Source: Chthonomonadaceae bacterium
Lineage (GTDB): Bacteria > Armatimonadota > Fimbriimonadia > Fimbriimonadales > Fimbriimonadaceae
Assembly: GCA_015709495.1 (NCBI GenBank)
Contig: CP054189.1
Coordinates: forward strand, 1,922,001 to 1,986,000
Length of the DNA: 64,000 nt
Reading direction: 5' to 3'
The position numbers and the translations under genes were made by a program. The first letter of the stretch is position 1, and the number at the start of each line of letters is the position of its first letter. The notes below the pieces were generated by a model that had not been told where the DNA came from, made no database searches, and saw only the letters and a list, made by a program, of their open reading frames with translations. Of the stretch, positions 30,836-57,199 are shown piece after piece.

Positions 30836-31903
30836 ATGAAAGAGCCCACTCCCAGCCACAAACCGGAAGCTACGGAAGAGTTGGAGCCTCGGAAACGTAC
30901 CTTACTCCGTGCCGTGGTGCTCGAATACGTCGACACCGCCGAGCCGATTGCCAGCGAGTACCTCGTCGAGAAGTACGATCTAGGCATCAAATCGGCGACC
31001 GTTCGGAACGAGTTGTCCGAGATGGCTGAACTCGGGTTCTTGGAGCAACCCCATACCAGCGCGGGCAGGATTCCCAGCGACAAGGGGTACCGGTACTTCG
31101 TCGATCATCTCTTGGTGCCAGCGGACCTCCGAGGGGCGCATCGGCAGACGATCAGCGAGACGCAGCGCGGAGGCGAGGCCCTGTTTGAACTGCTCAACGA
31201 AGCCACGTTGGCTCTGAGCCGCTGGACTCAACTGCTGAGCGTTGCCGCAATCCTTCGCGATGCGGACGTGCGCCTCAAAAACGTCATCGTAAGCGCGGTC
31301 GGACCGCACCAGGCGCTCTTGGTCGTGGTCTTGGGCAACGGGCATGTGGAGAGCCGGATGGTGGAGTGCCCCCCTGGGTTGACTCTGACCGATTTGGGCC
31401 AAGTGAACGAGGCGCTCCAGCAGAGCTTCGTTGGGGAGTCGCTCAAATCGCTGGCAAGATCGAAGGTCGGCGGTGGAACCGGCAAATCCAGCGTGGAAAA
31501 GCTTGAACTGGCGATCCGTTCGACCTTGAGGTCGATCGCGAAGGACTTGACGCGCGGGCGGCTGGTCTCGAAAGGGGAAGAGCTCTTGCTCGCCCAGCCG
31601 GAGTTCAAGCGGGATTCCGAGATGATTTCCGAACTGATCGAGACGCTGCAAACGACCGATCTTGTGTACGACGCATTGAGCGCGGGAAGCGAGGCGATCG
31701 AGAACGTTACGATAGGGAAGGAGAACCGGCGCTCTGAGCTATCCCGGCTCTCGATCGTTCGCCAAGTGTTCTTTGTAGGCGGCAAGGAGGCGGGAGTGAT
31801 CGGTATCGTCGGCCCTACGCGAATGGCGTATGAGTCGGGGCTTCCGCTCGTCAACTACACAGCCCGCGCCCTCTCCGACGCGCTCACCAAGTTCTTCGCC
31901 TGA
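30836..31903 (+). CDS. hrcA: Heat-inducible transcription repressor HrcA
   Basis: 355 residues. A winged-helix DNA-binding domain at about 15-95 holds LRAVVLEYVDTAEPIASEYL, IKSATVRNELSEMAELGFLEQPHTSAGRIPSDKGYRYFVD, the classic HrcA signature. The GAF-like dimer domain follows. HrcA binds CIRCE operators before groE and dnaK operons and needs GroEL to fold. It normally precedes grpE-dnaK-dnaJ, but here it stands alone, facing the decarboxylase gene. I see no CIRCE sequence in the 109 bases upstream. Confidence 0.96.
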   Translation: MKEPTPSHKPEATEELEPRKRTLLRAVVLEYVDTAEPIASEYLVEKYDLGIKSATVRNELSEMAELGFLEQPHTSAGRIPSDKGYRYFVDHLLVPADLRGAHRQTISETQRGGEALFELLNEATLALSRWTQLLSVAAILRDADVRLKNVIVSAVGPHQALLVVVLGNGHVESRMVECPPGLTLTDLGQVNEALQQSFVGESLKSLARSKVGGGTGKSSVEKLELAIRSTLRSIAKDLTRGRLVSKGEELLLAQPEFKRDSEMISELIETLQTTDLVYDALSAGSEAIENVTIGKENRRSELSRLSIVRQVFFVGGKEAGVIGIVGPTRMAYESGLPLVNYTARALSDALTKFFA

Positions 31904-52757: not shown

Positions 52758-53162
52758 TCACAGCTTTGGCTTGGGCTTGAGCTTGATATGAGGAACGGGG
52801 AGCAAGCTGCCATCCTTGCGAATCGGAACGTTCGAGCGGCTCATGAGGTCCTGGATTCGGCGCTCCGTTTTTTGGACGTAGTCGTAGACCTGCCGCTCGA
52901 AATCCTGGTGGAGGTCATCGATGTCGTTGAGGAGGCTGAGAATGATCTCGACCCCCGCCAAATTCACGCCCATTTGCTGCGTGAGACGCTGGATCTGGCG
53001 CACCTTCTCGATGTCCTGCTCGCTGTACAAACGGTTCTTTGCGCCCACTCGGGACGGGACGACGAGTCCCAGCCGCTCGTATTGTCTCAGAGTTTGCGGG
53101 TGAACCCCACAAAGCCTTGCCGCGACTCCGATCATGTAGACGGGCCGGTTCTCGTTCGTCAT
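52758..53162 (-). CDS. hspR: MerR-family heat-shock repressor HspR
   Basis: 134 residues from the ATG at 53162, which overlaps the dnaJ TGA by four bases; the frame is open further upstream inside dnaJ. The winged helix is [31 protein letters not shown], then [33 protein letters not shown], the standard HspR signature. A coiled coil at about 80-110 would dimerise it. HspR binds HAIR operators (CTTGAGT-N7-ACTCAAG) with DnaK as co-repressor in actinobacteria. A HAIR-like site lies just before the upstream dnaJ gene, so the operon is probably auto-repressed. Confidence 0.93.
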
Positions 53163-54109
53163 GCCTTCACGTTCTCCAACTCGGCGAGCTTTTCGATCAA
53201 CTCGCGCTCTTCCGAGGTTAGCTTTTTCGGGACGACGATCTTGGCGCGCGCAAAGAGGTCGCTCCGCCCTCCATTCATACGCGTGATGCCTTGCCCTCCA
53301 AGTCGAAACGTCTGGCCGCATTGCGTCCCCGCAGGAACGCGCATTTTGAGCTTGGACCGCAGGGTCGGCACCGACACTTCTCCGCCCAGGGCCGCGACCG
53401 TGAACGGCACATCGACATCGACTTCGAGACCGGTTTCAACCAGGCGAAAACTCGGATGATGAGCCCAGTGAACTGTTACGTAGAGGTCGCCGCTGCGTCC
53501 GTTGAGCCCGGCTGTGCCCATTTTCGGCACTCGGAGCTTCTTTCCGTGCTCGATACCTGCCGGGACAGTGAGCGTGACCTCCTTGTTCTTGGGAATCGTC
53601 CCTATCGCTCCGTTCGCAGTTCGCACTGCATCCATCGTCTGATACCTGAGGGTTCGCTTGCAGCCCATGTCGATCTCTTCCAACGGCACTTCGATCACCT
53701 TTTCGACGTCGCTGGGTTGTGCCTTGCGGAACTCCTCGAGGTCGAACTCCACTCGCCTACGGCCTTGGGGCCTACCTCCGCCGAAGCCGCCGAAGATGTG
53801 CGAAAACACCGACTCGAAGTCGCCGACACCTTCGCTGAAGTCGATATCGACTCCCTCTGCGCCGGGTCCTGCGCCGAACTTCTGGGCCGACTCCCAGTTG
53901 GCGCCGTACTGGTCATAGAGGCTGCGGCGCTGCTCATCGCCGATCACCTCATACGCTTCTTGGACCTCCTTGAATCGAGCCTCGGCCGAGGCGTCGTTCG
54001 GGTTTACGTCGGGGTGGTACTTGCGCGCGAGCTTGCGGTAGGACTCTTTGATCTCCTTGTTGGAGGCCCTCCGGGAAACGCCCAGCACTGCGTAGTAGTC
54101 TTTTGCCAT
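53159..54109 (-). CDS. dnaJ: DnaJ/CbpA-type co-chaperone without zinc finger
   Basis: 316 residues from the ATG at 54109 ([10 protein letters not shown]); five codons of open frame precede it. The J domain at 1-70 has the HPD motif at residues 32-34. A Gly-rich linker ([11 protein letters not shown]) and two C-terminal substrate-binding beta domains follow, e.g. [21 protein letters not shown] and [21 protein letters not shown]. The CxxCxGxG zinc domain of true DnaJ is absent, so it is a type II (CbpA-like) Hsp40. It is translationally coupled with hspR; dnaK and grpE are not nearby. Confidence 0.92.
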
Positions 54110-54131
54110 CGAAGTCCCTAACACTCAACTG

Positions 54132-54152
54132 TCTGAGTATATAACACTCAAA
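54132..54152 (-). promoter_or_regulatory. HAIR operator (HspR binding site) over the dnaJ-hspR promoter
   Basis: Plus-strand sequence TCTGAGT-N7-ACTCAAA; compared with the HAIR consensus CTTGAGT-N7-ACTCAAG it matches 5 of 7 and 6 of 7 bases with exact N7 spacing. A -10-like TATACT on the minus strand (54141-54136) lies inside it, so repressor binding would block the promoter. A second ACTCAA half-site (54123-54128) sits between this element and the start codon. Confidence 0.8.
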
Positions 54153-54193
54153 CGACCTATAGGCGTTTCACTCTAGGCGGTTGTTCCCACAGG

Positions 54194-54238
54194 CTTGAGT
54201 GGGCGGGACTTCGCAACCTCCACGGTCGTGGCTTGAGT
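54194..54238 (+). promoter_or_regulatory. Two CTTGAGT half-sites before the HDOD gene
   Basis: Exact HAIR left half-sites CTTGAGT occur at 54194-54200 and 54232-54238. The first is followed after seven bases by ACTTCGC, which shares only ACT with the right half. They may extend HspR control to the divergent HDOD gene; this is an inference. Confidence 0.4.
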
Positions 54239-54269
54239 TCGGCGAAGTTGCTGCCGATACTTAGGTCGT

Positions 54270-55130
54270 ATGGCTCTCGACGATGTCGCCGTGAAGATCG
54301 CGCGAAGCGAGAATCTCTCCATCTTGCCGGAGGTGGGCAGGCAGGTGATTCGCCTGATCGACGACCCTGATGCGAGCGTCGCGAAGCTCGAATCCCTGAT
54401 CGAACGGGACCCTGCGATGTCGGCCAAGATCGTTCGCGTCGCGAACTCGGCGTATTACGGCCACTCGAACATCGGTTCCATCGGGCGCGCCGTCACGGTC
54501 CTTGGAATGAACATCGTGCGCTCGCTGGTGACGACCATTGTTTACCAGCAGGTCGTCAAGGATTACGATGGGTTCAGCAAGGGGTTTGCCTACGGTCTTT
54601 GGCGGCACAGCCTCGCCACAGGCATCGTCGCTCGCATCCTCGCCAAGATCAAAATGCCGCTCAAGGCGGAGAACCTCTATGCGGCGTCGCTCATCCACAA
54701 CGTCGGACTCCTTTCGATGGGCAGGTTTTGCTCCGACCAGCTTGTGACGGTCATCGCTGAGGCCAGAAAGGGCGAGCGAAGCATCCTGGAAGTCGAGCAC
54801 GAACAACTCGGGTTCGATCATACGGAGGTCGGCGAATTGATCGGGCAAAAGTGGGGCCTACCGGAGTTCATGATCACAGCTCTTCGGTATCACCATAGCC
54901 CTCTCGAGGCCCCGGCGAATCAGGAAACGGCGACGATTGTGGCGGTTTCTCAACTCGCGGCGCAACGAGCGGGCTACACGTTCGAGTTCGTCGCCACCCC
55001 GGAGCCGATCCCGACCGAGTGGCTCGAAGCGATCGAACTCTCCGAGGATCAGATCCCCGCCGTCGAGTCCGTGCTGCACTCCGAGATGGAGAAGGTGCAA
55101 CAGCTCTTCAACGTCCCCGCGGCAGCCTAG
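54270..55130 (+). CDS. HDOD-domain signalling protein
   Basis: 286 residues. The HDOD core spans about 10-210: ILPEVGRQVIRLIDDPDASVAKLESLIERDPAMSAKIVRVANSAYYG, then IGRAVTVLGMNIVRSLV and LYAASLIHNVGLLSM. The His-Asp pair of true HD phosphohydrolases is His143-Asn144 here, which fits the non-catalytic HDOD family. Such proteins are often signalling adaptors linked to motility or second messengers; no partner domain is fused. It is divergent from the dnaJ-hspR operon and shares a 160-base control region with it. Confidence 0.9.
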   Translation: MALDDVAVKIARSENLSILPEVGRQVIRLIDDPDASVAKLESLIERDPAMSAKIVRVANSAYYGHSNIGSIGRAVTVLGMNIVRSLVTTIVYQQVVKDYDGFSKGFAYGLWRHSLATGIVARILAKIKMPLKAENLYAASLIHNVGLLSMGRFCSDQLVTVIAEARKGERSILEVEHEQLGFDHTEVGELIGQKWGLPEFMITALRYHHSPLEAPANQETATIVAVSQLAAQRAGYTFEFVATPEPIPTEWLEAIELSEDQIPAVESVLHSEMEKVQQLFNVPAAA

Positions 55131-57199
55131 TGATCGGTGGCTTCCGCAGCCTTGCGCTGCTCGAACTCCTTGATAAGAGCCTGCTGCTCAGGGAACGGCA
55201 ATTCGTCGTAGTGGGAGAACCGTTGGACAAACCGTCCTCGGCCCTTGGTGATCGACCTCAGATCGAGAGCATACCGGGTCATCGTCGCGACCGGCACTTG
55301 GGCGCGGACGCGAGTTTTACCAGGGGCGACTGGGTCCATCCCCGCAAGCCTCCCCCGCCTGCCATTTAGGTCGCCAACGACGTCTCCGACGCAATCATCC
55401 GGCACATCGACTTCGACGTTTACGATGGGTTCAAGGATGGTCGGGTCTGCTTTTTCGGCGGCCGCCCGAAACGCCAGCGCGCCTGCGATCTTAAAGGCCA
55501 TCTCGCTGGAGTCGACCTCGTGGTACGAGCCGTCGTAAACCGTCGCTCGGACGTCGACGACCTGGAATCCGGCCCGCAGTCCCCCTTCCAATGCCTCGCG
55601 GACGCCTTTCTCGACGGCGGGAATGTAGTTCTTAGGAATGGAGCCACCCACGACTTTGTTATCAAATTGGAACCCGGACCCTCGTTCGAGCGGCTCGAGC
55701 TCCAGCCAGCAGTCTCCGAACTGGCCTCGTCCTCCGGTCTGCCTCTTGTGGCGTCCTTGAGCCTTCGCCGAGCCTTTGACCGTTTCCTTGAACGGGACCT
55801 TCGCTTCGGCGGTTTCGACCGTGACGCCGAACCTCGATTTGAGCTTCTCGATGGCGGCGTCGAGGTGGATATCGCCCATCCCTTCGAGGATCTCCTGGTG
55901 AATGGTCGCGTCTCGTACGTACCGTAGAGTCGGGTCCTCTTCGAGCAGCTTGGTGAGGGCGGGCCCGAGCTTGTCTTCATCCGACTTGGTCGCGGGTCGA
56001 ATGGCGATTCGATAGATCGGCTCAGGGAATTCGATCGCCGGAATCATTACCTTGTCTTTGGCGGTGGTCAGGGTATCTCCCGTATGGGTGTCCTGCAACT
56101 TCGCGAGCGCGCAAATGTCCCCCGCGCCGACTTCGGTGGCCGCCTCTTGGCCCTTGCCGTGAGGGAAGTAAATGTTGTGGAGTCGTTCCTCTTGCTCGCG
56201 GTTGATGTTGAGCACGTGCGCGTCCGCTTTCAACGTGCCGCTGTAGACTCTGACGTAGTTGATTTTGCCGACGTAAGGGTCGGCCGTTGACTTGAACACG
56301 AATGCGGCCAACGGTCCCGCAGGTTCTGCCTTGAGCGTGAGTTCACCGAGGGTTTTCGGCTGTTCGCAGGGAGAAGGCAGTTCGCCGACGATGCGGTCCA
56401 ATAGGGTAGCGACGCCGATGCCGCTATGCGCCGAACCCAGCAGGATCGGAACGACTCGGCCCGACTCCGTGCCGACCATCAGTCCGTGCTCAATCTCTTC
56501 GTCGGTGAGCGCGCCCCCATCGAGATACTTCATCATCAGATCGTCGTCGCCTTCGGCGGCCGACTCCATCATCTGGACGCGCAGATCCTCCGCTTCTGAG
56601 ACATGACCGGAAGGAACGTCCTCGATTTGCTCGCCCCTATCCTTGCCCTTGTACACCTTCATGCTAAGAAGGTCCAGCACGCCGCTGAATGCCGCTTGGT
56701 GACCGATCGGGAGTTGGACCTGCACGACCTTGGTGCCATACAGCGCCTTGAGCGTGCGCATCAAGCCGTCAAAATCAGAGTTGTCGCGTTCGAGCTTGTT
56801 GACAAACACGCATTTCGAGAGCCCGTGCTGTTCGGCGACTTCCCAAGCGAGTTCGAATCCGACGTCGAGGTCGGCTTTCGCCTCACAAACGATGATCATC
56901 GCCTCGACCACTCTCGCTATCGCGTGGAGATCGCCGATGAAATCGGGATAACCGGGTACGTCGATGAGGTTGATCTTGTGTCCGTTCCATTCCAGCGGAT
57001 TGACGCTCGCGCTGATACTGATCTTGCGCCTGATTTCGAGCGGGTCGAAGTCGCTTTGGGTGTTGCCCGCATCGACCGAGCCTACGCGATCGACCGCGCC
57101 GGCGGTGAACAGCATGTGCTCGACCAGCATCGTCTTGCCGGACCCACCATGACCCACGATAGCGACGTTGCGAATCTTGTCAGGGGAATAGGACTTCAC
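55127..57199 (-). CDS. Elongation factor G-like GTPase (EF-G paralogue)
   Basis: 690 residues with all five EF-G domains. G1 is GHGGSGKT (16-23), G3 is DVPGYPDF (80-87) and G4 is NKLERD (134-139). In true EF-G the G3 motif is DTPGHVDF, whose His helps GTP hydrolysis; here it is Tyr84. The late domain IV segment GGRGQFGDCWLELEPLERGSGF and the C-terminal LDLRSITKGRGRFVQRFSHYDELP are conserved. A separate canonical fusA begins at 63910, so this is a paralogue, in the EF-G2 or 'EF-G-like' group, with an uncertain role. It ends with a four-base overlap against the HDOD gene. Confidence 0.92.
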   Translation of the reverse strand: MKSYSPDKIRNVAIVGHGGSGKTMLVEHMLFTAGAVDRVGSVDAGNTQSDFDPLEIRRKISISASVNPLEWNGHKINLIDVPGYPDFIGDLHAIARVVEAMIIVCEAKADLDVGFELAWEVAEQHGLSKCVFVNKLERDNSDFDGLMRTLKALYGTKVVQVQLPIGHQAAFSGVLDLLSMKVYKGKDRGEQIEDVPSGHVSEAEDLRVQMMESAAEGDDDLMMKYLDGGALTDEEIEHGLMVGTESGRVVPILLGSAHSGIGVATLLDRIVGELPSPCEQPKTLGELTLKAEPAGPLAAFVFKSTADPYVGKINYVRVYSGTLKADAHVLNINREQEERLHNIYFPHGKGQEAATEVGAGDICALAKLQDTHTGDTLTTAKDKVMIPAIEFPEPIYRIAIRPATKSDEDKLGPALTKLLEEDPTLRYVRDATIHQEILEGMGDIHLDAAIEKLKSRFGVTVETAEAKVPFKETVKGSAKAQGRHKRQTGGRGQFGDCWLELEPLERGSGFQFDNKVVGGSIPKNYIPAVEKGVREALEGGLRAGFQVVDVRATVYDGSYHEVDSSEMAFKIAGALAFRAAAEKADPTILEPIVNVEVDVPDDCVGDVVGDLNGRRGRLAGMDPVAPGKTRVRAQVPVATMTRYALDLRSITKGRGRFVQRFSHYDELPFPEQQALIKEFEQRKAAEATDH

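Follow-up and report, generated by a model that had tools for sequence, protein, structure and literature searches.

The genes dnaJ and hspR, located in the 64,000-nucleotide stretch of DNA analysed here (the window), form what is probably a single operon encoding a self-regulating heat-shock pair of chaperone and repressor (Table 1). By homology with the HspR proteins of Streptomyces and Helicobacter, the repressor HspR would bind a HAIR operator covering the core promoter and repress dnaJ-hspR and, in the likely complete scheme, also dnaK and clpB, over promoters of the ECF type. Repression of dnaK and clpB in the same manner is very probable and would tie the supply of chaperones to that of the repressor, while heat-shock output at the three operons would need two events, an active ECF sigma factor and the release of HspR. 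An earlier note on this DNA had proposed an HspR-autoregulated dnaJ-hspR operon with a HAIR site at its promoter, a reading supported here by sequence comparison, with HAIR present also at dnaK and, more weakly, at clpB.

Table 1. Features of the dnaJ-hspR region and of related regulatory genes (window positions unless a contig is given).
Feature	Position	Strand	Remarks
hspR	52758..53162	-	134 aa; MerR-family repressor; 4-bp overlap with the dnaJ stop
dnaJ	53159..54109	-	316 aa; J domain and DnaJ_C, without zinc finger
Third HspR-like half-site TTGAG	54124..54128	-	3 bp after HAIR
HAIR operator TTTGAGTGTTATATACTCAGA	54132..54152	-	N7 between arms; 22 bp before dnaJ; conserved in the family
TATACT, -10 box of the earlier note	54136..54141	-	no -35 partner found
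TGTT, predicted ECF -10 inside HAIR	54143..54146	-	spacer 18 instead of 17 (imperfect)
GAAAC, predicted ECF -35	54165..54169	-	upstream of this genome's dnaJ
Isolated ACTCAAG half-site	54232..54238	-	further upstream of dnaJ; also in same-species genome G061
Second isolated ACTCAAG half-site	54194..54200	-	further upstream of dnaJ; also in G061
hrcA	30836..31903	+	other chaperone repressor; same window, outside the dnaJ-hspR operon
Candidate ECF sigma gene	G000:C1:1909956-1910498		about 11.5 kb left of the window; orthologue of the L313 sigma

The genome containing the window (G000) is one contig (C1) of 2,897,187 bp, and was compared with genomes nearly all from different genera, of which G000-G036 belong to Fimbriimonadaceae (the window's family, Armatimonadota) and G037-G060 to other families of the order. 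Upstream regions were available for dnaK in 36 and for clpB in 29 of the 37 family genomes. The hspR loci come from 54 of the 55 genomes above the HspR cut-off (that of G035 lies at a contig end) and from G054 below it; exclusion of L029 and L039, in which dnaJ is cut by the contig end, and of 21 loci from other families leaves the 32 dnaJ upstream regions counted below. G034, which has no HAIR at dnaJ, stands outside the column counts and the association test (n = 31), and G022 outside the dnaK column counts.

The second gene of the dnaJ operon is hspR, as the earlier note had read it: its product scores 115.8 bits against the NCBIfam HspR model NF047375 (cut-off 105) and also matches Pfam MerR_1, and the hspR start codon overlaps the dnaJ stop codon in the sequence ATGA. 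The 160 bp between dnaJ and a divergent HDOD-domain gene (54270-55130) contain the HAIR element. Upstream of the operon, the HDOD gene has an elongation factor G paralogue (window 55127-57199) as its neighbour. All 61 relatives searched have an HspR match, 55 of them above the model cut-off, and dnaJ lies directly before hspR in each of the 55 loci examined (54 above the cut-off plus G054), while a dnaJ match, partial in some cases, is found upstream of hspR in 33/33 loci outside the phylum. The nearest named HspR relatives (57-70% identity) are from Fimbriimonadaceae and other Armatimonadota, followed mostly by those of Deferribacterota and Campylobacterota, and the Campylobacterota loci share the dnaJ-hspR order and a HAIR-like site.

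In the other families of the order, dnaJ is mostly preceded by an apparent DnaK C-terminus, dnaK lying just upstream, so the arrangement there is dnaK-dnaJ-hspR and the split is a trait of Fimbriimonadaceae. The statement that dnaK and grpE are missing is correct for the operon and not for the genome, which encodes dnaK (C1:2602678-2604468) and grpE (C1:2709244-2709717) away from dnaJ-hspR; nor is their absence from the operon unusual, the cbpA-hspR operon described for Helicobacter being similar (PMC6102357). A further GrpE-like gene, adjacent to two DnaK-like genes, is located at C1:312384-316107. The DnaJ of this genome contains no CxxCxG motif, which occurs at least once at the same place in 21/32 family and 21/21 other-family DnaJ proteins; its zinc finger looks to have been lost within the family, perhaps more than once, and the protein does not look like a true CbpA.

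The HAIR consensus is the inverted repeat CTTGAGT-N7-ACTCAAG, to which TTTGAGTGTTATATACTCAGA conforms at 11 of 14 positions (3 mismatches). Scans with this textbook consensus were rejected as evidence, as neither count exceeds its control: with 3 mismatches allowed, the window contains 4 sites (shuffle mean 1.98; 4 reached by 13 of 100 shuffles), and the genome has 98 per strand, fewer than the 227 of the reversed control pattern. Since such scans do no better than chance, a consensus match in a single genome is no evidence, whereas comparison with relatives is. Its conservation there shows the HAIR element before dnaJ-hspR to be real. The HAIR-like element with exact N7 spacing that the earlier note described is indeed read at 54152-54132, and a CTTGAGYGTTATATACTCATG-like element is kept 33-45 bp before dnaJ in 31/32 family genomes, the sole exception being G034, a 68% complete genome. 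In a leave-one-out profile of the 32 family genomes, the site of this genome scores 32.2, whereas the highest of 300 Markov controls is 5.3, and 31 family genomes score above all 300 controls. That the site resembles HAIR by chance and that hspR lacks autoregulation, as the consensus scans taken by themselves would allow, is extremely improbable given this conservation and a model blind to this genome that finds only dnaJ and dnaK.

The tetranucleotide TTGA follows the 21-bp HAIR by exactly 3 bp in 22/31 family dnaJ sites, and by exactly 4 bp in 11/35 dnaK sites. This third half-site is probably bound by a second HspR dimer, which would join the first cooperatively after HAIR.

Other chaperone genes carry the operator too. 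The earlier note had named the lack of further HAIR sites at chaperone genes as counting against its reading; such sites are clear at dnaK and weak at clpB. With a profile built from dnaJ sites only, the site of this genome excluded, HAIR is found before dnaK in 34/36 family genomes, above all 100 dinucleotide shuffles, and the same profile, with the search ending at the start codon, finds it before clpB in 15/29. A profile of dnaJ and dnaK sites, with 9 coding bases included, raises the latter count to 27/29 at the 1% level. The clpB HAIR of this genome is degenerate, with 10.6 bits (reached by 1/300 controls), and is not recovered by the genome scan with the sequence model (E≤10). Motif model R1 contains neither sites of G000, G022, G033, G034, G035 and G036 nor weak clpB sites. 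The genome-wide HAIR scan proposed earlier has two outcomes: the textbook consensus stays at chance level, while a family model of 82 sites, none from this genome, identifies only two places in 2.9 Mb at E≤10, namely before dnaK (E 0.32) and before dnaJ (E 0.34). Neither E-value is significant singly, and the blind model counts as support because the two best places in the genome are both chaperone promoters.

Among 81 family genomes, 70 have a match to the HAIR model at E≤0.3, and 29 of the best 30 loci precede dnaK, dnaJ or clpB; the remaining one, L313, precedes an ECF sigma gene. Of two weaker matches, one (L387) belongs to another dnaJ, and the other, a HAIR-like site in G030 (L388:1294-1316), is situated between hsp20-like and trypsin-like protease genes, named from their translations. 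Outside the family, 18 dnaK loci were read by eye and uncounted, most showing a HAIR-like repeat, and control by HspR/HAIR and ECF sigma may be older than Fimbriimonadaceae. The dnaK loci of family f2 (L084-L087, L089-L092, L094, L095 and L106) seem, by eye, to possess two successive promoters, the first with TTGACA/TATAAT-like sequences around HAIR and the second of the form GGAAC-N17-NGTA or similar.

The upstream regions of the three operons share the pattern GRAAC-N17-CGTH, which is present at dnaK in 24/36, at clpB in 15/29 and at dnaJ in 18/32 (57/97 upstream regions in total). Counts of the same two words at each of the remaining ten spacers (12 to 22) are 0 to 3 per gene, the shuffle mean for N16 and N17 together is 0.25-0.42 per gene, and the reverse strand and the reversed sequence of the same regions contain no match. 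At dnaJ, the CGTH word usually falls within the left arm of HAIR (TTGAGCGTT). Where it does, GRAAC stands 22 bp upstream in 14/16 genomes, against 1/15 of those without such a CGTH (Fisher p 7e-6, a value that overstates independence, as relatives share ancestry). Three family genomes have the whole promoter 11 bp further upstream and a HAIR arm without CGTT. These regularities suggest that dnaK, clpB and dnaJ-hspR additionally depend for their activation on an ECF sigma factor specialised in stress. Binding of HspR and of RNA polymerase should be mutually exclusive at dnaJ, where the -10 falls in the left arm of HAIR.

The distance of HAIR from the -10 differs between the genes, being -6 in 15/19 dnaJ regions (+5 in three and +30 in one), spread from 1 to 14 at dnaK and mostly 22-27 at clpB (16/18). 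A Rayleigh test for helical phasing (period 10.5) gives p 0.05 for dnaK and lower values for dnaJ and clpB, whose distances are clustered, a lead only in view of shared ancestry. The dnaK (GAAAC-N17-CGTA) and clpB (GGAAC-N17-CGTA) promoters of this genome both fit the pattern, and no ECF promoter match occurs upstream of its grpE. The ECF reading is weakest at the window's own operon, where the predicted GAAAC-N18-TGTT has a spacer one base too long and T in place of C; GRAAC-N18-TGTT occurs in 3/32 dnaJ upstream regions, 14/32 have no strict GRAAC-N17-CGTH match, and G061, of the same species, has an identical sequence here. A scan for the pattern was discarded as a means of defining the regulon, as GRAAC-N17-CGTW occurs 107 times in this genome and 72 times in the reversed control, which is too unspecific.

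The rival closest to the earlier note is an ordinary housekeeping promoter with TATACT as the -10 box under HAIR and HspR autoregulating its operon. The word itself is present (54141-54136), but its role as a -10 box is doubtful and finds no support: the best -35 for it in this genome reaches 2/6, a TTGACA-like -35 with at least 4/6 matches 16-18 bp upstream is found in 1/31 genomes (about 3.6 expected from control offsets), and a sigma-70 consensus scan of 53900-54400 detects no promoter. A TATAAT-like word inside an operator need not be a -10 box, and TA in the HAIR spacer is common at clpB too, where the usual distance of HAIR downstream of the -10 is 22-27 bp. A role for TATACT retains some plausibility through the preference at dnaJ for T at HAIR position 12 (26/31, against 10/35 at dnaK), next to which A at position 13 is found in 28/31 dnaJ sites. 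This preference, the imperfect ECF match at this dnaJ and the TTGACA/TATAAT-like sequences seen by eye around HAIR in the f2 dnaK operon all speak for a housekeeping promoter, which is nonetheless quite unlikely, as it also leaves the exact spacing of GRAAC-N17-CGTH unexplained. Two promoters at the same HAIR, with TATACT serving basal housekeeping expression and the ECF promoter serving stress, would accommodate both the dnaJ-specific TAnnnT preference and the ECF signal and would resemble the two promoters in succession in f2 (by eye), but the missing -35 weighs against this arrangement as well, and it is an unlikely one. The ECF-type promoter under HspR control is the reading preferred here.

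The best candidate for the corresponding sigma factor is the gene listed in Table 1, whose own promoter carries the same motif. Its product contains the Sigma70_r2 and r4_2 domains only, scores 103 bits against TIGR02937 (cut-off 42.9), and is nearest to the SigE and SigW models, below their cut-offs. A close orthologue of the L313 sigma (E 2e-66 or better, the next paralogues being at about E 1e-43) is encoded in 32/37 family genomes; G009, G014, G025, G028 and G029 are those of the 37 without one. Upstream of this gene GGAAC-N17-[TCG]GTT is present in 25/32 genomes, this one included, with at most 4 at the other spacers from 10 to 24, and upstream of second-tier ECF paralogues it is present in 1/20. 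The shared motif points to an autoregulated sigma factor common with the chaperones, but another sigma, or a second one, may recognise these promoters.

It is a serious possibility, falling somewhat short of even, that the ECF promoter is real and that some other sigma factor, or more than one, acts on it. At E≤1e-15 the sigma query matches 8 times in this genome, the strict motif is retained before dnaK in three family genomes lacking a close orthologue (G009, G025 and G028), and the -10 word at the candidate's own gene is mostly TGTT (18/32), while that at the chaperones is mostly CGTT. The near absence of the motif from second-tier paralogues argues against this alternative, as do two genomes: in G019 the sigma gene carries both HAIR and the ECF promoter, and that of G012 is situated 120 bp upstream of hrcA. 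As a general feature, HAIR before the sigma gene was dropped, being found in 1/30 loci examined (G019). No anti-sigma gene was recognised by eye beside the candidate of this genome.

A more far-reaching scheme can be put forward tentatively, and is less probable than its opposite. In Fimbriimonadales, a dedicated autoregulated ECF sigma would be the heat-shock sigma for dnaK, clpB and dnaJ-hspR, gated by HspR through a left HAIR arm that is at once the -10; HspR would repress the sigma gene as well in at least one species, giving a double loop, and in some species promoter and operator would both have been kept while moving by roughly a helical turn.

As for the other chaperone repressor, a gene for HrcA is found in 57/61 relatives, a CIRCE-like site with 3 mismatches directly precedes groES (G000:C1:251958-251984), and groESL looks HrcA-controlled, apart from HspR, so that HrcA/CIRCE would handle groESL separately. 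At dnaJ no CIRCE was found, there being no exact half-site anywhere in the window.

In Streptomyces, hspR is part of the dnaK-grpE-dnaJ operon, unlike in Fimbriimonadaceae, where dnaK and clpB are separate from dnaJ-hspR. An ECF promoter is not known to be involved at cbpA-hspR of H. pylori, nor is a -10 embedded in a HAIR arm known from Corynebacterium glutamicum. The HspR targets described for Streptomyces coelicolor are the dnaK operon and clpB (PMC2687793, PMC6102357), its dnaK having three HAIR copies (PMC6102357), and HAIR is likewise found at dnaK and clpB here. The passages on H. pylori in PMC6102357 describe a cbpA-hspR operon (Pcbp) in which HAIR overlaps the promoter and HspR represses its own synthesis, covering about 70 bp through flanking contacts. 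The present locus is similar in that hspR shares an operon with a DnaJ relative and HAIR is at the promoter, and differs in that the additional site beside HAIR is a conserved third half-site, whereas the flanking determinants in H. pylori are of non-conserved sequence (PMC6102357).

Outside the actinobacteria, HspR is described from Deinococcus, Helicobacter and Campylobacter, and that of Deinococcus radiodurans controls dnaK, dnaJ, grpE, clpB and hsp20 (PMC2687793), which resembles the present case in the placing of HspR at chaperone genes, with no ECF part stated in the passages concerned. In C. glutamicum, according to PMC3489674, which cites Ehira (2009), the ECF sigma SigH and HspR act on shared heat-shock genes with HrcA in parallel, a logic that would recur here; SigH has the anti-sigma gene rshA adjacent, unlike the candidate described above, which belongs to a different phylum and has no recognised anti-sigma gene beside it. 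A report on HspR or heat-shock regulation in Armatimonadota, or on the pairing of an ECF sigma with HspR in this phylum, was not found in the open-access literature, and the main text of the class's first complete-genome paper (PMC4072686) makes no mention of HspR, heat or dnaJ.

HspR autoregulation at HAIR is established for Streptomyces and Helicobacter; novelty lies in the lineage, in a -10 that falls within the HAIR arm and has an alternative placement 11 bp away, and in the candidate sigma. The core of the system is ordinary and its promoter architecture moderately new. Heat-shock control by an ECF sigma together with HspR, as known from actinobacteria, would with this finding reach a deep phylum that has hardly been studied, and a clear, testable regulon of three operons and one candidate sigma factor is provided. 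That the promoter occupies two positions with respect to HAIR, 11 bp apart, constitutes a natural experiment on the register of operator and promoter.
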